This document shows, one piece after another, positions 20,565 to 30,053 of a DNA stretch of 64,000 nt. The translations under genes and the position numbers were made by a program. Source of the DNA: Bifidobacterium breve (GTDB taxonomy: Bacteria; Actinomycetota; Thermoleophilia; Solirubrobacterales; Solirubrobacteraceae); the NCBI GenBank assembly GCA_945878865.1, contig CAMCUD010000003.1:62001-126000 (forward strand), given 5' to 3'. Each line of letters opens with the position of its first letter. The first letter of the stretch is position 1. Under the pieces are notes generated by a model. That model ran no database searches. It was not told the origin of the DNA and saw only the letters and a list, made by a program, of their open reading frames with translations.

Positions 20565-21614
20565 TCAGACGGTCTCGAGGACCCGCGCGGGCGCCGCCTC
20601 GGCGCGCGGCGCCGGCGGGGCCTCGGCCCGGACGGCGGCGGTCTCGCCGCGCTTGCGCGGGCGCTTGACCTTCACGTACTCGGCGAGGTAGTAGGAGCCG
20701 ACCACGAAGAGCGCGGCGAGCACCTGGGCGGCGAGGGTCTGCCAGTACGAGTACATCTCAAACCAGGAGCCCATCCACTCCGGCACGGTGAACGGCGTCG
20801 GTGTCAGGCCGATCCAGCCGAGCTCGCCGAACGTCAGCGCGGTGCCGCCGATCATGACGACGAGCACGAAGCCGACCATCACGCCGGTGAGGATGAGCAT
20901 CTTCTTGTAGGGCAGCTTCTGGTGCAGCCAGAAGACCGCGACGCCGACGAGCGCCGTTCCGGCCAGGCCGAGGAGCAGGCCCTCGAGGACTGCGGAGCTG
21001 CCGTCCTTGAGCTGGAGGGCCTGGAGGAAGAGCACGACCTCGAAGCCCTCGCGGTAGACGCTCGTGAAGCCGAGGAGCACCAGCCCGAGCACGGCGCCCG
21101 CGCCCGTCTGCGCGAGGAGCTTGCGGCGCTGGCGGTGGTGCTTGCCGATCCACTCGCTCCAGTAGACCTTGTGGACGAACCAGTTGAGGATCACGAGCAG
21201 CACCGCGATGGCGATGAAGCCGGTGATCGCCTCGAGCTTGGGGCCGAGTGGGCTGGCCGCGTCGAGGACTGCCTGGATGACGAACCAGGTCACGATCGAC
21301 GCGAGGAACGCGACGCCGGCGCCGGCGATGACCGGGCGGCGCTTGGCCTTGTTCGCCCCCAGGAAGCTGGCGGTGACGGCCGCGAAGATCAGGACGGCCT
21401 CGAGGCCTTCGCGGAACACGATGATCGCCGAGTTGAAGACGACGGTTCCGTGGCTCTGCGGGTCGGTCGCTTCGGTCGGGTCGACCGGGCCGGTGCTCGC
21501 GGTGGCCATGAGGTAGACGATGCCGGCGAGCACGGCGAGCCCGCCGACCCACCACAGAGCGCGGAGGGACGACAGGGTGCGGCGCGTCGCGGGGACACTG
21601 GTCGGCGGCTGCAT
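20565..21614 (-). CDS. FTR1/EfeU-family high-affinity iron permease
   Basis: 349 residues with about 7-8 membrane helices. Both FTR1 iron motifs are present: FREGLEAVLIF and YREGFEVVLFL (REGxE). EfeO and EfeB are not adjacent. The mature end carries a basic Ala/Pro-rich tail (about 315-349). ATG 21614 lies inside an iron-box-like palindrome, with TAGGTA 6 bases upstream, so transcription may be leaderless and directly blocked by an iron repressor. It probably imports Fe3+ across the cell membrane. Confidence 0.9.
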   Translation of the reverse strand: MQPPTSVPATRRTLSSLRALWWVGGLAVLAGIVYLMATASTGPVDPTEATDPQSHGTVVFNSAIIVFREGLEAVLIFAAVTASFLGANKAKRRPVIAGAGVAFLASIVTWFVIQAVLDAASPLGPKLEAITGFIAIAVLLVILNWFVHKVYWSEWIGKHHRQRRKLLAQTGAGAVLGLVLLGFTSVYREGFEVVLFLQALQLKDGSSAVLEGLLLGLAGTALVGVAVFWLHQKLPYKKMLILTGVMVGFVLVVMIGGTALTFGELGWIGLTPTPFTVPEWMGSWFEMYSYWQTLAAQVLAALFVVGSYYLAEYVKVKRPRKRGETAAVRAEAPPAPRAEAAPARVLETV

Positions 21615-21659: not shown

Positions 21660-22217
21660 CTAACTCTCAGAATTGGACAAGACGCCCAGTTGTGCGGGCG
21701 TCTCCGTGTGCGCCGGTCGCAGCACGAGCAGCTCGCAGTCGTCGCGCTCGAGCAGCCACGCGACGTCCTCGGGCGCGAGGCCGTCGGTCTCGTCGGTCGC
21801 CACGGCGACGACGATCCGGTCGAAGCGCTCGTGCGCGATCGCCTGGCGCAGCGCGTGGCGGACCGTTCGGCCGCGCTCGATCCGGCTGTCGACCGCGATC
21901 TGCTGGGCCGCGGCCCGGGACTCGATGGCTTCGAAGACGGGAAGCGCCGCGAGCGCTGCGCCCGGTGTCGCCGCCGTGAGCGGAAGGTCGAGCGGCACCT
22001 GCGCGAGATAGACGGGCACGAGGACGGCATCCTCCGCCCGGGCGAGCCGCAGCGTCGCGTCGAGCGCGCGGCGCGACACCGCGGCGCCGAGGAACGGGAA
22101 GAGGATCCGATGCGCGGTGGGGTGCAGCTCGGCCGCTCGGCGCCGGCGCACGAGCAGCCAGACGAGGACGACCACCACGCCGGTGAGAATCGGCACGAGA
22201 AAGTCCAGCCCGCTCAC
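21660..22217 (-). CDS. Membrane-anchored universal stress protein (UspA-like)
   Basis: 185 residues. One N-terminal helix (about 6-24) ends in RRRRAAE, then a single UspA-like domain (HRILFPFLGAAVSRRALDATLRLA, later FDRIVVAVATDE and a terminal strand ELLVLRPA). The ATP-binding GxxGS motif is absent or degenerate, so it may bind no nucleotide or another ligand. It overlaps the kdpD N-terminal gene by 4 bases and ends the kdp operon. Its Usp-like fold next to a KdpD fragment hints at a role in potassium sensing. Confidence 0.75.
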   Translation of the reverse strand: MSGLDFLVPILTGVVVVLVWLLVRRRRAAELHPTAHRILFPFLGAAVSRRALDATLRLARAEDAVLVPVYLAQVPLDLPLTAATPGAALAALPVFEAIESRAAAQQIAVDSRIERGRTVRHALRQAIAHERFDRIVVAVATDETDGLAPEDVAWLLERDDCELLVLRPAHTETPAQLGVLSNSES

Positions 22218-23332
22218 GGCTGCTCCTTTCGCCGGGTGCGGTCGGCGACGATCCGGACGTCGACACCCGGCAGCGCGCGCACCAGCCGCATGGGCAGCGG
22301 CTCGGTGAACCGGCGCAGGCCCGACCGGCGCGACGGGACCCCGAGCAGGATGTACGTCGTCCCGCGCTCACACGCGACGCGGGTGACCGTCCGGACGACG
22401 TCGTCACCCGGCTCGATGAGCAGGTGGGCGCCGAGCACCGAGGCCAGGCGCCGCAACCCCTCGAGCTCCTCCTGCTGGGCGGGCGTGGGCTCGCGGCCGG
22501 CGGGCGCGACCCACAGCAGGTCGAGCTCGGAGCCGAGGCGCTGCGCGGCGCGGAAGGCGCGGCGGACGACCTTCTGCGCGTTCGGCCCGGGCGTCACGAG
22601 GGCGAGGAGGCGCTCCCCGAACGCGACCGGCGTCGTCAGGACCCGGTCATCGCGGGTCGCCGCGCGAAGCGGGCGGTCCACGAGCAGCCGCTTCTCCTGC
22701 ACCTCCTCGGCGACTTGGCGCAGGGCGACCTCGCGCAGCGCCGAGAGGTGCTCGGTCTTGAAGAATCCGTTGAGCGCCGCCGCGATGCGGTCGGCGGGGT
22801 AGACCTTGCCCGCCTGCAGACGCGAGATGAGCTGGTCGGGCGGCAAGTCGATGAGCAGGACCTCGTCTGCGTCGGCGAGGACACGATCCGGCAGGGTCTC
22901 GCGCACCTTCACGCCCGTCAGTTCCGCCACCTGGTCGTTGAGCGACTCGAGATGCTGCACGTTGACGGTGGTCCAGGTGTCGATGCCGGCCTCCAGGACG
23001 CTCTCGACGTCCTGCCAGCGCTTGGCGTGCTCGACCCCCGCCGCGTTGGTGTGGGCCAGCTCGTCGATGAGGCAGAGCTCGGGCGCGCGCTTGATCACTC
23101 CGGGGAGGTCGACCTCCTCGAGCGTGCGCCCGCGGTAGGTGATCCGCCGGTGCGGGACCCGTTCCAGCCCGTCGGCCTGATCCTCCGTCTCCCGCCGCCC
23201 GTGCGGCTCGAGATAGCCGATCACGACGTCCCGGCCGTTTGCCGCTTCGGCACGTCCGTCGGCGAGCATCCGGTACGTCTTGCCGACGCCCGCGGCCATC
23301 CCGAGATAGATCCGGTGGTGGCCGCGGGCCAT
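22214..23332 (-). CDS. kdpD: KdpD N-terminal sensor module as a separate protein
   Basis: 372 residues. Residues about 5-210 are the KdpD sensor domain with Walker A GMAAGVGKT, the signature ELCLIDELAHTN and TTVNVQHLESLNDQV. Residues about 225-360 are a Usp-like domain, the part that binds c-di-AMP in some KdpD proteins. The protein ends there: the four membrane helices and the kinase domain are absent. These are encoded at 28641-30053 on the other side of kdpFABC. ATG is 3 bases after kdpB. It probably acts in trans on the separate kinase. Confidence 0.9.
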   Translation of the reverse strand: MARGHHRIYLGMAAGVGKTYRMLADGRAEAANGRDVVIGYLEPHGRRETEDQADGLERVPHRRITYRGRTLEEVDLPGVIKRAPELCLIDELAHTNAAGVEHAKRWQDVESVLEAGIDTWTTVNVQHLESLNDQVAELTGVKVRETLPDRVLADADEVLLIDLPPDQLISRLQAGKVYPADRIAAALNGFFKTEHLSALREVALRQVAEEVQEKRLLVDRPLRAATRDDRVLTTPVAFGERLLALVTPGPNAQKVVRRAFRAAQRLGSELDLLWVAPAGREPTPAQQEELEGLRRLASVLGAHLLIEPGDDVVRTVTRVACERGTTYILLGVPSRRSGLRRFTEPLPMRLVRALPGVDVRIVADRTRRKEQP

Positions 23333-23335
23333 CGC

Positions 23336-25378
23336 TCAGGCGCCGAGGACGTTGTGGACGACGAGGTCGATGAGCTTGATCCCGACGAAGGGGGCGACGA
23401 TCCCGCCGAGCCCGTAGAGGAGGAGGTTGCGGCGCAGCAGCGCCGTCGCGCCCGACGGCCGATAGCGCACGCCGCGCAGCGCGAGCGGGACGAGCAGCGG
23501 GATGACGATCGCGTTGAACACGATCGCGCTGATGATCGCCGACTCGGGCGTCCCCAGGTTCATGACGTTCAGCGTGTCCAGCGGGCCCGTGGCGTCCCCG
23601 GACGCCGCGTAGGTCGCCGCGAACATCGCCGGCAGGATCGCGAAGTACTTCGCGATGTCGTTGGCGATGGAGAACGTCGTCAGCGCGCCGCGGGTGATCA
23701 GCAGCTGCTTGCCCACTTCGACGATCTCGATGAGCTTCGTCGGATTGGAGTCGAGGTCGACCATGTTTCCGGCCTCACGGGCGGCCTGCGTGCCCGTGTT
23801 CATCGCGACCCCGACGTCGGCCTGGGCCAGGGCGGGCGCGTCGTTCGTGCCGTCGCCCGTCATCGCGACGAGCCTGCCCTGCTCCTGCTGCTCGGCGATG
23901 AGGGCCAGCTTGCGCTCGGGCGTCGCCTCGGCGAGGAAGTCATCGACGCCGGACTCCTCGGCGATCTTCGCGGCCGTCAGGCGGTTGTCGCCGGTGACCA
24001 TCACGGTGCGGATGCCCATCGCCCGCAGCTGGTCGAAGCGCTCGCGCATCCCGTCCTTGATCACGTCCTTGAGGTAGATGACGCCGAGCACCTGGCTGTC
24101 GCGGGCGACGGCCAGCGGGGTGCCGCCCTCGCGGGCGATCCGATCGAGCTGCTCGCGCAGCTGGGGCGGGGTCGAGCCGCCCTCGTCGGTGACCCAGCGC
24201 TCGATCGCCTCGCCGGCGCCCTTGCGCAGGCGGTGGCCGTCCACGTCGATCCCGCTCATCCGCGTCTGCGCGGTGAACGGCACGAACTCGTGGTCGACGC
24301 CGGCGAGGTGGCGCTCCCGGATCCCGAACTGCTTGGCGAGCACGACGATCGACCGGCCCTCCGGCGTCTCGTCGGCGAGCGAGGCGAGCTGCGCGGCCTC
24401 GGCGAGGTCCTGCTCGGTCACGCCCGGCATCGGGTGAAACGAGGTGGCCTGACGGTTGCCGAGCGTGATCGTCCCGGTCTTGTCCAGCAGGAGCACGTCG
24501 ACGTCGCCGGACGCCTCCACGGCCCGGCCGGAAAGCGCGAGCACGTTGCGCCGGACCAGTCGGTCCATCCCGGCGATGCCGATCGCCGACAGCAGCGCGC
24601 CGATCGTCGTCGGGATGAGCGCCACGAGCAGCGCGATCAGCGTCGCGGTGGAGATCGCGGTGTCGGCGAAGTCGGCCATCGGCCGCAGCGCGACGACGAC
24701 CACGAGGAAGATGAGCGTCAGGCCGGCGAGCAGGATGCCGAGCGCGATCTCGTTCGGGGTCTTGCGCCGCGACGCGCCTTCGACGAGGGCGATCATCCGG
24801 TCGATGAAGGAGGACCCGGGCTCCTGGGTGATCTCGACGACGATGCGGTCGGAGAGCACGCCGGTGCCGCCGGTCACCGCCGACCGATCCCCGCCGGCTT
24901 CGCGGATGACCGGGGCCGATTCGCCCGTGATCGCGGACTCGTCCACGGAGGCGATCCCTTCGATGACCGTGCCGTCGCCCGGGATCGTCTGGCCGGCCTC
25001 GACCACGACGACATCGCCGGGCCGGAGGTCCTGCGCGGGCTTCTCCGTGCCGTCGCGCATGACGGCGGTGGTCGTGGAGCGCATCGCGCGCAGCGTCGCG
25101 GCTTGGGCCTTGCCCCGGCCCTCCGCGAGCGCCTCGGCGAGGTTGCCGAAGACGACCGTCAGCCACAGCCAGACGGTGACGGTGAACGTGAACCAGCCGG
25201 GGTCGTCGCCGCTGCCGGCGAGCCACGCGATCGTCGTCACCGCGGCGCCGACTTCGACGACGAACATGACGGGGTTGCGGACCATGTGCCGCGGGTCGAG
25301 CTTGCGGACCGCGTCGACCGACGCCGGCCCGAGGATGGACGGATCGAACATCGAGCGCTCTTGCGTGGTGGCGGTCAC
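23336..25378 (-). CDS. kdpB: Potassium-transporting ATPase ATP-binding subunit
   Basis: 680-residue P-type ATPase, normal length. The phosphorylated aspartate is D299 in [12 protein letters not shown], the actuator motif is AITGESAPV, and the hinge motifs [10 protein letters not shown] and [18 protein letters not shown] are intact. It hydrolyses ATP to drive high-affinity K+ uptake through KdpA in the membrane. ATG 25378 overlaps the kdpC stop. Confidence 0.97.
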
Positions 25379-25953
25379 CGGGTCTCCTCATCGAGGGCGA
25401 GGTTCAGCGTGAGCACGTTGACGCCGGGCTCGCCCATGAAGCCCAGTCCCCGGCCGTCGGTGTGCTCGTCGATCAGGTCGTTGACCCGATCGAGGGAGAG
25501 GCCCCGCACGCGAGCGACGCGGCGGGCCTGGATCTCGGCGTTCTCGGGCGAGATATGCGGGTCGACGCCGGACGCGGACGTCGTCGCGGCATCGACCGGG
25601 ACGTCGGCGAGGGCGATGCGCTCCCGGCGGGCGTAGGCGACCGCCGCCTGATGTTGCTGCGTGGCCAGGTCACGCTGGTTGGGGCCGAGGTTGTTGAAGA
25701 AGGTCGCGTCGGCCGAGTCGTCGCTCGCGGACGGTCGGCTCTGGAAGTACCGTCGCCGGCCCTGGAAGTCCTGGCCGATGAGCTCCGAGCCGACGACCTT
25801 CCCGTCGCGCTCGATCTGCGACCCGTTGGCCTTCCCTGGCATCGTCACCTGCGCGATCCCGGTCACGGCCAGCGGGTAGATGAGCCCGCAGACGACGGTG
25901 AAGAGCAGCACGGCGACGGCCGAGGCGATGAGGTCCTTGCGCATCGTCGACAC
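25375..25953 (-). CDS. kdpC: Potassium-transporting ATPase C subunit
   Basis: 192 residues. One membrane helix (about 9-32) and the KdpC outer domain with [28 protein letters not shown], then [27 protein letters not shown], both hallmark blocks. It stabilises the KdpFABC complex. It lies between kdpA (3-base gap) and kdpB (4-base overlap). The order here is F-A-C-B, not the usual F-A-B-C. Confidence 0.96.
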
Positions 25954-25956
25954 CTC

Positions 25957-27687
25957 CTAGAACAACTGGTTGGTCAGGCCCTGGACCACGGGTCCGAGCA
26001 GGAGGGCGGGAACGAACGTCAGGAGCGCGACGAGCGCGACGGCGCCGACGAGGAGCACCACGAACGTGGGCGTGTCGGTCCTCATGGTGCCCGGCCCCGG
26101 AGGGGACACCCGCTTCCCGGCCAACGCGCCGGCGACGGCGAGGGCGGCGAGCATCGGCACGAAGCGCCCGAACAGCATCGCCGCGGCACCCAGCAGGTTC
26201 GCGAACGTGATCCCGAACGCGCCCACGTTGTCGCCGTTCGGCTGGACGAAGCCGGTGTAGCCCGCGAAGGCCGACCCGTTGTTGTTGGCCTGCGAGGTGT
26301 AGGCGTACAGCGTCTCGCTGAAGCCCTGCGGCCCGCTGTCGTAGATCGAGGGCGCGCCCCATTTCGTCCCGATCGCGAGTGCCGTGAAGACCAGGACGAC
26401 GAGCGGCACGAACAGCGTGCCGATCACCACCAGGCGAATCTCCCTCGGGCCGATCTTCTTGCCGAGGTACTCGGGCGTCCGGCCGACCATAAGTCCGGCG
26501 AGGAAGACCGCCAGGAGGACGAACAGCAGCATCCCGTAGAGCCCGGAGCCGACTCCGCCGAAGATGACCTCGCCGGTCATCATGTTCGCCATCGGGACGG
26601 CGCCGCCGAGGCCGGAGAACGATTCCATCGCGGCGTTGACGGCGCCGCAGGACGCGACGGTCGTGACGGCGGCGAACAGCGAGGACGACCCGATGCCGAA
26701 GCGGACGTCCTTGCCCTCCATGTTCGCCCCGTGCAGGCCGGCGGCGTGCATCGCGGGCGTGCTGTCGGACTCGGCGATGTAGACGAGGGCGACCGCGGCG
26801 ATGAACCACACCGCCATCGCGGTGTAGACCGCCCAGCCCTGGCGCTGACTGCCGACCATCCGGCCGAACGTGTTCGTCAGGGCGGCGGGGATGATGAGGA
26901 TGGCCAGCATGAGCACGAAGTTCGTGAGCCCCGAGCTGTTCTCGAACGGCATCGCGGCGTTGACGTTGAAGAAGCCGCCGCCGTTGGTCCCGAGCTCCTT
27001 GATGAACTCCTGGCTGGCGACCGGGCCGCGCGCGAGCGTCTGGGTGCCGCCGGTGAGCGTGGTCACGTCGACGTACGCACCGAGCGTCTGGATGACGCCT
27101 TGGCTGACGAGGAACAGCGCGCCGACGAGGCAGAGCGGCAGCAGCACGTAGAGCGTGCACCGGATCGCGTCGACCCAGAAGTTCCCGACCCGCGTGGCCT
27201 CCCGTCGCGCGAAGCCCCGGATCACCGCGACCGCGACCGCGATCCCCACGGCCGCGCTGACGAAGTTCTGGACGGCCAGGCCGGCCATCTGGGTGAAGTA
27301 CGACATCGTCGTCTCGCCCGCGTAGAACTGCCAGTTCGTGTTCGTCAGGAACGAGACGGCGGTGTTGAAGGAGAGGTCCCACGGGGGTGCCGTGAGTCCC
27401 TCGGGGTTCAGCGGCAGTGAACCCTGCAGGCGGATGAGCAGGTAGAGCGCGGCGAGGAACAGGCCGCTGAAGACCAGGACGGTCCGGGCGTAGCCCTTCC
27501 AGTCCTGCTCTCGGTCGGGCGACGTGCCGAGCAGGCGGTACGCGCCGCGCTCGACGGGGCCGAGGACGGGGGTGAGCAGCACCCGTTCGCCCTCGAAGAC
27601 CTGCATGAGGTAGCGGCCGACGATCGGGGTCACGGCGGTGAGGGCCGCGATGAACACGACGATCTGCAGCCAGCCGGCGACGTTCAC
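25957..27687 (-). CDS. kdpA: Potassium-transporting ATPase potassium-binding subunit
   Basis: 576 residues with about ten membrane helices. Selectivity-filter-like segments are visible: SFLTNTNWQFYAGE, GTNGGGFFNVNAAMPFENSSGL, SCGAVNAAMESFSGLGG and SQANNNGSAFAGY, the four pore loops of the SKT family. GTG 27687 has GGGGAGG 4 bases upstream and overlaps the kdpF stop (GTGA). A longer frame upstream is not needed. Confidence 0.97.
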   Translation of the reverse strand: MNVAGWLQIVVFIAALTAVTPIVGRYLMQVFEGERVLLTPVLGPVERGAYRLLGTSPDREQDWKGYARTVLVFSGLFLAALYLLIRLQGSLPLNPEGLTAPPWDLSFNTAVSFLTNTNWQFYAGETTMSYFTQMAGLAVQNFVSAAVGIAVAVAVIRGFARREATRVGNFWVDAIRCTLYVLLPLCLVGALFLVSQGVIQTLGAYVDVTTLTGGTQTLARGPVASQEFIKELGTNGGGFFNVNAAMPFENSSGLTNFVLMLAILIIPAALTNTFGRMVGSQRQGWAVYTAMAVWFIAAVALVYIAESDSTPAMHAAGLHGANMEGKDVRFGIGSSSLFAAVTTVASCGAVNAAMESFSGLGGAVPMANMMTGEVIFGGVGSGLYGMLLFVLLAVFLAGLMVGRTPEYLGKKIGPREIRLVVIGTLFVPLVVLVFTALAIGTKWGAPSIYDSGPQGFSETLYAYTSQANNNGSAFAGYTGFVQPNGDNVGAFGITFANLLGAAAMLFGRFVPMLAALAVAGALAGKRVSPPGPGTMRTDTPTFVVLLVGAVALVALLTFVPALLLGPVVQGLTNQLF

Positions 27688-27773
27688 AGCTCCTCCCCGC
27701 GCAGCAGCGCGAAGACGAGCCAGGCGGCGAGCGCGCACGCGACCGCCAGGCAGGCGGCGTCGGAGAAGCTCAT
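27684..27773 (-). CDS. kdpF: KdpF small membrane subunit
   Basis: 29-residue peptide (ATG 27773): SDAACLAVACALAAWLVFALLRGEEL. It is one membrane helix ending in LLxGExL, the typical KdpF C-terminus. It overlaps the kdpA GTG by 4 bases and the preceding tiny ORF by 4 bases. KdpF stabilises the KdpABC complex. It is easily missed because of its size. Confidence 0.85.
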   Translation of the reverse strand: MSFSDAACLAVACALAAWLVFALLRGEEL

Positions 27774-27889
27774 ACGCGCTCCAGTCCGGCGAGCACGAGG
27801 AAGAGGGCCGCGAAGCCGAGGAGGCCCAGGACGACGCTGACGACGTCACCTGCGCCGTCGGGCAGTCCCAGAAAGGCGAGTGTGGACAT
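27770..27889 (-). CDS. 39-residue membrane peptide heading the kdp operon
   Basis: ATG 27889 opens a 39-residue ORF with one predicted helix (DVVSVVLGLLGFAALFLVLAGLERV). Its stop overlaps the kdpF ATG (ATGA), the same coupling used throughout the operon, so it is likely translated. It resembles kdpF in size and polarity but ends in GLERV, not LLRGEEL. No function is known to me; it may be a second small subunit of the Kdp complex or of the sensor. Confidence 0.65.
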   Translation of the reverse strand: MSTLAFLGLPDGAGDVVSVVLGLLGFAALFLVLAGLERV

Positions 27890-27913
27890 GACATCCACGG
27901 TGCGCCCGCGGTC

Positions 27914-27963
27914 GTCAGGGCGGCGTCAGGATCGGCCGCCGCGGCGTCAAGATGTCGTCAAGA
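27914..27963 (-). promoter_or_regulatory. Four 7-base direct repeats, likely KdpE boxes
   Basis: Read in the direction of the operon: TCTTGAC-N4-TCTTGAC-N14-TCCTGAC-N4-CCCTGAC. Each pair is spaced 11 bases, and the pairs are offset by 32 bases (three turns). OmpR/PhoB-type regulators bind 7-base direct repeats with 4-base gaps. The array fills the space between the kdpE stop and the small ORF that opens kdpFABC. A -10 is not clear. Confidence 0.65.
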
Positions 27964-27981: not shown

Positions 27982-28644
27982 CTACGCGAACCTGTAGCCG
28001 ACCCCGGGATCCGTCCGGATCCTCGTGCCGTCCGGGTCGACCTTGCGGCGCAGGTTCGACATGTGCGTGCGCAGCGTCGCCGTGTCGTGCTCGTAGGCGG
28101 CGCCCCACACCTCGGTGAGCAGCACGCGGTGGGTGAGCAGCCGGCCGCGGTGGCGCAGCAGCGTCTTGAGCAGGTCGAACTCGATGGGGGTGAGGTGGAC
28201 GTCGTCGCCCTCGAGCCGGACGGTGTGCGCCGCCACATCGAGCTCGAGCCCGTCGGCGCGCAGGACCGGGTCGGAGGGGCCACCGGATGCGCGCCGCAGG
28301 GCCGCCTGAAGCCGCGCGACCAGCTCGCGCGGGCCGAACGGCTTGACGACGTAGTCGTCGGCGCCCGCCTCGAGCGCCCGGACCTTCTCCTCCTCGTCGC
28401 CGACGGCCGAGAGCACGAGGATCGGCATCTCGGTCCATTCGCGCAGCCGGCGGCAGACCTCGATCCCGTCGATGTCGGGGAGGACGAGGTCGAGGATCGC
28501 GGCGTCGGGCGGGCGGACGGCGGCGCGGTCGAGCGCCTCTTCGCCGGTCTCGGCCGTGACCGCCTCGAACCCGGCCTCGCGCAGCACGACCTTCAGCGCC
28601 CGGACGATGTGGGGCTCGTCGTCGCAGACCAGGACGCGGCTCAT
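27982..28644 (-). CDS. kdpE: KdpE response regulator
   Basis: 220-residue OmpR-family regulator. Receiver acidic residues are in CDDEPHIVRALKVVLR, the phospho-acceptor Asp in AILDLVLPDIDGIEVCRRLRE, and Lys in DDYVVKPFG. A winged-helix domain follows (LTPIEFDLLKTLLRHRGRLLTHRVLLTEVWG, then DPGVGYRFA). ATG overlaps the kinase stop, so the kinase comes first and kdpE second, with kdpFABC downstream on the same strand. It activates kdp under K+ limitation. Confidence 0.93.
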   Translation of the reverse strand: MSRVLVCDDEPHIVRALKVVLREAGFEAVTAETGEEALDRAAVRPPDAAILDLVLPDIDGIEVCRRLREWTEMPILVLSAVGDEEEKVRALEAGADDYVVKPFGPRELVARLQAALRRASGGPSDPVLRADGLELDVAAHTVRLEGDDVHLTPIEFDLLKTLLRHRGRLLTHRVLLTEVWGAAYEHDTATLRTHMSNLRRKVDPDGTRIRTDPGVGYRFA

Positions 28645-30053
28645 CGCGCGGACTCCTCGACCCGGACCGGCAGCGGCAGCTCGATCACCAGGGAGGTGCC
28701 CTGCCCGGGCAGGGACTCCGCGAAGATCCGTCCCCCGTTGGCCTCGATGAACCCGCGTGCGACCGCGAGGCCGAGGCCCGAGCCGCCGGTGCGATCGTCG
28801 CGCCGCCGGTAGAACGCCTCGAAGATGCGCTCGAGTTCCGTCGCCGGGATGCCCGCGCCGCGGTCGACCACGCGAATGACGACCCGCGAGCCGACCGCCC
28901 GCGCGCGCACCGAGACCTCGTGCCCGCCGCTGTGCTGCCGCGCGTTCTCCAGGACGTTGGCGAGCGCCCGCTCGAGCTGCCCGGCGTCGAGCTGGACGAG
29001 CGGGGTCTCCGGATCGGCGCTGACACGGAACTCCCCGTCACGGGCGTTGATCGCCTGCAGCGCGCCGGTGAGCAGCTCGGGGACCGCGACCCAGTCGGGC
29101 CGCGGTTCGGCCGCGCCGGCCTGCAGGCGCGAGAGGTCGAGGAGCTGGTCGACGAGGCGCGTGAGCCGCCGGGCGTCCTGGCCGATCGCGGTGACGAGCT
29201 CGTCGCGCTCGTCGTCGCGCAGCACGGGCGAGGCGAGCGCGTCGGCGCTCGTGATGATCGACGTCAGCGGCGAGCGCAGGTCGTGTGAGACCGCGCGGAG
29301 GATCGCGGTCTTCAGCTCGTCGCTGCGGCGCAGCGCGCGGGTCTCGACGACCTCGCGCTGCAGCGTCTGACGATCCAGGGCCGAGCGCAGCACCGCCTCG
29401 AGCGGCGGGACGAGGCGCTCGGCGATGCGGGCCCGCGCCTCGTCGGGCAGCGGCCCGGGCAGCAGCAGCGTCGCCGGCCGGCGCTGCGCTCCGGCGTCGA
29501 GGGTGAACGCGACGTGGTGGGCGTCGCCCCGGGCCTCGTGCAGGACGATCGTCGCGGACGGGACGCCGACCGCCTCGGCGACATGCGCGGCGGCGGGAGG
29601 CAGCGCGGCGTCGACGTCGGTGGCGCCGAGCAGCTCACGCGCGAGCACTGCCGCGAGATCCGCCTCCCGGCGGCGCTGCTCGGCGTCGATCGTCCTGGAA
29701 CGGGCGAGGTCGGCGAGCGTGCCGATGGCGACCGCCGTGACGAAGAAGATCGCGAGCGCGACCCAGTTCTCGCCGTCGGCGATGGTGAACGTGCCGGTCG
29801 GGGTGACGTGGAAGAAATTGAACGCGAGCGCCGAGGCGACCGCGGCGGCGATGCCGAGCGCCCGGCCGCAGACCGCGGCGACGAGGATCACGGCCAGGAG
29901 GTAGACGACGGCGAGCGAGAGCGTCGGAGCCACCGCGCGGATCGGATAGCCCAGGAGCGTCACCGCCGCGACCGCCGCCACGGCGATCACCGCGCCGACC
30001 GCGAAGCGCGGCCGCGCGGGACGCAGCAGGGTCTCGGTGCCGGCGCGGTCCAT
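28641..30053 (-). CDS. kdpD: KdpD C-terminal half: membrane kinase as a separate protein
   Basis: 470 residues. Four membrane helices of the DUF4118 type (about 18-120, with FNFFHVTPTGTFTIADGENWVAL, a KdpD signature) are followed by a GAF-like region (about 140-245). HisKA has AVSHDLRSPLTSI and HATPase_c has N-box ANVLENARQHS, VDRGAGIP and GSGLGLAVA. The N-terminal KdpD sensor and Usp domains are missing and are encoded separately at 22214-23332. TACGCT lies 8 bases before ATG 30053. Confidence 0.92.
   Translation of the reverse strand: MDRAGTETLLRPARPRFAVGAVIAVAAVAAVTLLGYPIRAVAPTLSLAVVYLLAVILVAAVCGRALGIAAAVASALAFNFFHVTPTGTFTIADGENWVALAIFFVTAVAIGTLADLARSRTIDAEQRRREADLAAVLARELLGATDVDAALPPAAAHVAEAVGVPSATIVLHEARGDAHHVAFTLDAGAQRRPATLLLPGPLPDEARARIAERLVPPLEAVLRSALDRQTLQREVVETRALRRSDELKTAILRAVSHDLRSPLTSIITSADALASPVLRDDERDELVTAIGQDARRLTRLVDQLLDLSRLQAGAAEPRPDWVAVPELLTGALQAINARDGEFRVSADPETPLVQLDAGQLERALANVLENARQHSGGHEVSVRARAVGSRVVIRVVDRGAGIPATELERIFEAFYRRRDDRTGGSGLGLAVARGFIEANGGRIFAESLPGQGTSLVIELPLPVRVEESAR

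Follow-up and report, generated by a model that had tools for sequence, protein, structure and literature searches.

What the four short repeats lying just upstream of the kdp structural genes are for is the question raised by a 64,000-nucleotide stretch of DNA (the window; contig CAMCUD010000003.1 of assembly GCA_945878865.1, positions 62,001 to 126,000). Its source is a Solirubrobacterales actinobacterium, whose closest named KdpA matches are those of Svornostia abyssi J379 (83%) and of a Solirubrobacteraceae metagenome-assembled genome (79%). The minus strand carries, in this order, a histidine kinase gene, kdpE, the repeats, an open reading frame (ORF) for a 39-amino-acid membrane peptide, kdpF, kdpA, kdpC, kdpB and the gene for a KdpD sensor that is not a kinase. 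Our analysis suggests that the repeats form the operator of the kdp promoter, to which two dimers of the neighbouring KdpE bind (rough probability 0.88). The repeats very probably serve two KdpE pairs as docking sites, and on computational grounds their identity as a KdpE operator appears close to settled.

A sequence-only reading of the window had reported four TCTTGAC-like heptamers at 27914-27963, arranged in two pairs that each have an 11-base period and lie three turns apart, just before the kdp structural operon. All four are present on the minus strand at exactly these coordinates, in the 94 bp that separate the end of kdpE (stop at 27982) from the first small ORF of the operon (ATG at 27889). 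They precede the kdp structural genes, as expected of a KdpE operator. The heptamers, B1 to B4, start at 27963, 27952, 27931 and 27920, with steps of 11, 21 and 11 bp, and each pair consists of two direct half-sites with an 11-bp period, the tandem format of OmpR/PhoB-type regulators. The resulting offsets (0/11/32/43) correspond to about 0, 1.05, 3.05 and 4.1 helical turns, which are near whole turns, so that all four half-sites would lie on one face of the helix, the second pair about 3.05 turns from the first.

Kdp loci were fetched from the order and the class, kdpA, kdpE and their neighbours were located by tblastn, and the upstream regions were scored using the half-site model YKKNAY. 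Among the loci of the order with the gene order kdpA-kdpC-kdpB (A-C-B), 84 of 92 carry four half-sites at 0/11/32/43 together with a -10 element at a fixed distance, the conservation at orthologous promoters expected of a KdpE operator. The eight failing loci include two near a contig edge, one left unscored, two with four boxes and a shifted -10 (L117 and L267), and one with the boxes and one base fewer (L098). Spacing is much better conserved than the half-site letters, which vary among clades and change jointly within a promoter. The sequence-only reading had proposed to search related genomes for YCYTGAC-N4-YCYTGAC, and had taken relatives whose gaps lack the repeats as its refutation. The strict letters are indeed absent from most relatives, being limited to the window's genus (which in our comparisons takes in genomes G001 and G002) and a few others, whereas the spacing, with the looser half-sites, is retained in the 84 loci.

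An autocorrelation of ATG-anchored upstream regions, in which no motif letters enter the lag test and the choice of ATG relied on motif position, returned 32, 11, 21 and 43 as the top lags, exactly the differences among the four offsets. A repeat-lag test without anchoring showed enrichment of lags 32 and 11 in three sets (the order minus the window's genus, the class, and the remainder of the phylum) and none in other phyla; lag 21 was high too, but lags in multiples of three are inflated by coding sequence. Beyond the order, 4 of the 12 A-C-B loci of the class passed the strict test and some others show nothing, while the spacing is found with other letters in L240 (TTAGAG) and L242 (CTTAAG). 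Loci L240, L244, L245 and L246, from other families of the class, retain the four-box spacing with TTAGAG-like or CTTCAG-like half-sites. A divergent kdpA-B-C lineage of the same family (L063 in G136 and L090 in G022) has one KdpE-like pair, which lies on the opposite strand some 175 bp upstream of kdpA.

The array also stands in a fixed relation to the promoter. After B4, an A occupies position 13 in 78 of 81 loci and a T position 17 in 77, and these two are the -10 positions that matter most in sigma70-type promoters; the pattern NANNNT is found at +12 to +17 in 95% of these loci, and in at most 11% in any other register. This fixed distance means that B4 is under constraint. By this promoter geometry, B3/B4 would occupy roughly -40 to -24, the position of a pho box, and B1/B2 would lie further out, near -72 to -56. 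In the pho box, 11-bp direct repeats take the place of the -35 element at a fixed short distance from the -10, as in PhoB-dependent class II promoters, and the kdp array follows this pattern: a half-site lies in the -35 place at a fixed distance from the -10 in 95% of the 81 loci, and the order alignment contains no -35-like consensus in the columns between B3 and B4, which are G+C-rich. The pho box serves another regulator, and the two dimer sites of the kdp array are 32 bp apart rather than contiguous. In 60 of the 81 loci, the first start codon comes 23-24 bp past B4 and, since it falls where transcription is expected to begin, the simplest reading is that the kdp mRNA is probably leaderless.

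The same spacing is found in E. coli. In the K-12 kdp promoter (NC_000913.3), TTTATA and TTTACA are followed by TTTGCG (offset 32) and TTTGCA (offset 43), an arrangement whose score was reached by none of 200 Markov shuffles, and TACCCT, a plausible -10, lies 11 bases past the last hexamer. E. coli KdpE protects about -71 to -55, and the sequence is consistent with this. The letters differ, being AT-rich (TTTAC) in E. coli and TTGAC in the window, whose hexamers CTTGAC and CCTGAC do not conform to the E. coli-type half-site TTTA(T/C)A and share TT and AC with it in register, with a different central base. The kdp promoters of Duffyella, Azospirillum and Mycetohabitans also have array scores above all shuffles, and Rhodococcus and several other actinobacteria carry the array on the opposite strand. 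Plasmid kdp loci with the four-box spacing include Mycetohabitans L308 (plus strand) and Rhodococcus L314 (minus strand). By this test, the array is absent from Eremiobacterota, Acidobacteria and further loci of other phyla, and it is absent from the rhizobial, Acetobacter, Sphingomonas, L. plantarum and Streptomyces plasmid kdp loci read.

The E. coli kdpFABC site has been described as a single one, an 11-bp repeat of the form S1 TTTATA-N5-S2 TTTACA (PMC3264566), and the open literature (subscription papers not covered) yielded no description of a second E. coli KdpE site or of a fixed two-dimer array. As described for E. coli, only the distal pair B1/B2 might be the working KdpE site, the proximal pair being a weak remnant or a mere -35 region, and B3/B4 do match the half-site more poorly in E. 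coli (TTTTGC, CTTTGC) and in relatives such as L058, L114 and L111. Nevertheless, the letters of B3/B4 follow the KdpE type of the clade in most loci (CTG, CGT and CTTCAG each with like), B4 is constrained by its distance to the -10, and a Klebsiella plasmid kdp promoter has both pairs strong (TTTTAT, CTTTAT, ATTTAC, TTTTAC). We therefore regard a single working site as unlikely, albeit the most serious of the alternatives.

To which protein the repeats belong is indicated by the match between their letters and the KdpE encoded beside them. In 67 loci with a readable KdpE and array, each assigned its majority half-site class, KdpE with Arg197 is accompanied by CGTNAY half-sites in 15 of 15 cases (0 of 52 without Arg197), and KdpE with Gly193 by CTGNAY half-sites in 12 of 12 (0 of 55 without Gly193), while Thr, Ala or Val at 193 together with Asn197 goes with CTTNAY; the class agrees with the recognition helix in all 67 loci, with zero exceptions. 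The bases hence fit the residues with which the cognate KdpE would read DNA, as expected of its operator. On a tree of the receiver domain and linker, the Arg197 and Gly193 traits each change at least three times, and the partner half-sites change every time. Across all 220 KdpE residues, an unbiased scan ranked 197 and 200 first as predictors of hexamer position 2, and 193 and 194 as those of position 3, with residue 189, at the start of the recognition helix, topping position 4. Residues 193 and 197 align with I194 and H198 of E. coli KdpE and with V197 and R201 of PhoB, both of which contact bases (PMC3264566), a role that we propose for their KdpE counterparts; PhoB has Arg at the aligned position, and its half-site TGTCA(T/C) has G where it is predicted for Arg. 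One genome, G175, has two kdp systems, with Gly193 beside CTG boxes at L070 and Arg197 beside CGT boxes at L110.

This covariation indicates KdpE rather than another OmpR/PhoB-family regulator, such as an MtrA- or PhoB-like protein, binding alone or in addition. Such regulators commonly bind 11-bp direct repeats, and M. tuberculosis PhoP recognizes, as a tandem dimer, a direct repeat of 7-bp units with a 4-bp spacer, the same format of heptamer and four-base spacer, but at other genes, and with 4-bp spacers throughout the higher arrays tested (PMC4832192). The window's KdpE itself scores 201 bits against the KdpE equivalog model NF007820, under the NCBIfam cut-off of 325, and slightly higher on the MtrA family model, also under cut-off; its assignment relies on gene context and on the best structure match, which in the PDB is E. 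coli KdpE 4kny (existing structures of that protein are 4kny and 4kfc). In this genome, moreover, the array occurs at kdp only: YCYTGAC-N4-YCYTGAC (18 bp) has two matches in 4.96 Mb, both at kdp (reversed-pattern control, 0), and the four-box pattern in hexamer form, at up to 3 mismatches, has one, the kdp array with 0 mismatches (controls, 0). One-mismatch pairs elsewhere in the genome number 16, versus 4 for the control, many of them within long ORFs, and none of the 16 belongs to a further four-box array. Given the tracking of the KdpE helix from the same locus, a different reader appears improbable. That TTGAC-like -35 words clustered here by chance, the DNA being G+C-rich, for which the 30 copies of the single YCYTGAC heptamer on both strands of the window might speak, is ruled out by shuffles of the gap (none of 200,000 first-order Markov shuffles gave four heptamers or two phased pairs) and by the order-wide conservation of spacing while letters change. 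The array is not a hairpin either, since the gap as single-stranded DNA folds no better than shuffles (z -0.37).

Several observations weigh against an operator for two KdpE dimers. The half-site model was loosened from YTTNAY to YKKNAY after the relatives had been inspected, and in several of them B3/B4 form the weaker of the two pairs. When only well-supported branches are counted, there remain two (Arg197) and three (Gly193) independent paired changes, all concordant but too few for the tree-aware sign test alone to reach significance. In many kdp promoters from outside the order, the array is missing or lies on the opposite strand. On balance, the covariation with the recognition helix supports KdpE as the reader that the sequence-only reading had named, and its model of two dimers on one DNA face is consistent with the spacing. 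To these our analysis adds a proximal pair that occupies the -35 region at a distance of 11 bp from the -10, a probably leaderless transcript, and the same array in E. coli.

The mechanism we propose is as follows. Upon K+ limitation, the kinase of the split KdpD would phosphorylate KdpE, and two phosphorylated dimers would bind head-to-tail on the 11-bp direct repeats B1/B2 and B3/B4, whose centres are separated by 32 bp along one DNA face. The proximal dimer, covering about -40 to -24, would substitute for the -35 element and contact RNA polymerase beside sigma, as PhoB does at the pho box, while the distal dimer would cover about -72 to -56, the binding position of E. coli KdpE, and add recruitment or cooperativity. 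Transcription would then be activated at or beside the first start codon. That both pairs act together, with the proximal one replacing the -35, is what the geometry and the constraint on B4 suggest.

The kdp locus has further features of its own (Table 1). The kinase half of the split KdpD (30053-28641) adjoins kdpE, and the non-kinase KdpD/Usp sensor (23332-22214) lies at the distal end of the operon. Two tandem KdpF-like membrane peptides are encoded at 27889-27684 on the minus strand, the 39-amino-acid one ending in LERV; the overlap arrangement is also found in relatives, and Mycetohabitans L308 likewise has two small ORFs. The order kdpA-kdpC-kdpB (27687-23336, minus strand), in place of kdpA-kdpB-kdpC, is common to nearly all loci of the order and to part of the class. 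Downstream of the kdp cluster lies a gene for an FTR1/EfeU-type iron permease (20565-21614, minus strand).

Table 1. Features of the kdp locus, in window coordinates.
Feature	Position	Strand	Basis
Sensor histidine kinase (DUF4118 + HisKA + HATPase), kinase half of split KdpD	28641..30053	-	Domain profiles
kdpE response regulator	27982..28644	-	PF00072 receiver and PF00486 winged helix; structure match, gene context
Putative KdpE recognition-helix specificity residues	Thr193 codon 28066-28068; Asn197 codon 28054-28056	-	Covariation
Half-site B1 TCTTGAC, offset 0, upstream half of putative distal KdpE dimer site	27957..27963	-	Sequence; order-wide conservation
Half-site B2 TCTTGAC, offset 11, downstream half of putative distal dimer site	27946..27952	-	Sequence; order-wide conservation
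Half-site B3 TCCTGAC, offset 32, upstream half of putative proximal dimer site	27925..27931	-	Sequence; order-wide conservation
Half-site B4 CCCTGAC, offset 43, downstream half of putative proximal dimer site	27914..27920	-	Sequence; order-wide conservation
-10-like element CACCGT (form NANNNT), exactly 11 bp past B4	27897..27902	-	Conservation in 81 relatives
Predicted transcription start, at or up to 2 bases from ATG	27889..27891	-	Inferred; 7 bases after the -10 T
39-amino-acid membrane-peptide ORF, first KdpF-like peptide, probable first operon gene	27770..27889	-	Begins at predicted transcription start
kdpF, 29 amino acids (MSFSDAACLAVACALAAWLVFALLRGEEL)	27684..27773	-	TIGR02115 below cut-off, E 8e-4
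kdpA	25957..27687	-	TIGR00680, PF03814
kdpC	25375..25953	-	TIGR00681, PF02669
kdpB	23336..25378	-	TIGR01497
KdpD-like non-kinase sensor (KdpD + Usp domains)	22214..23332	-	NF038185 best match, below cut-off; PF02702

KdpE operators as such are already known; what looks new is the fixed two-dimer layout, the reach of this layout to E. coli and the code linking helix and half-site. Even for KdpE/kdpFABC, a two-component system found in textbooks, the operator has been described as one site. In M. smegmatis, the 22-bp KdpE motif CCGTAAAGAAACCATCAAGGCC was reported to have no noticeable similarity to other KdpE motifs, at a SigF-type promoter with a 120-bp leader (PMC5401905). When reverse-complemented to GGCCTTGATGGTTTCTTTACGG, it shows CTTGAT-N5-CTTTAC and shares both the half-site and the 11-bp period with the window, the motif as printed being on the opposite strand, unlike the window's half-sites. 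A single register unites the M. smegmatis and E. coli motifs, previously taken to be unrelated, and from it a further KdpE site, proximal to the known one, can be predicted in E. coli. We lean slightly towards a broader view, in which the array (0/11/32/43, with B4 11 bp from the -10) would be an old and widely shared kdp layout that includes an overlooked proximal E. coli site (TTTGCG/TTTGCA, about -39 to -24), and in which, in these actinobacteria, residues 193 and 197 would have switched repeatedly together with all four half-sites, a natural specificity code able to insulate two Kdp systems in one genome, as in G175. The paired changes of helix and half-site amount to a natural mutational series of how OmpR/PhoB regulators shift their DNA specificity while retaining function.
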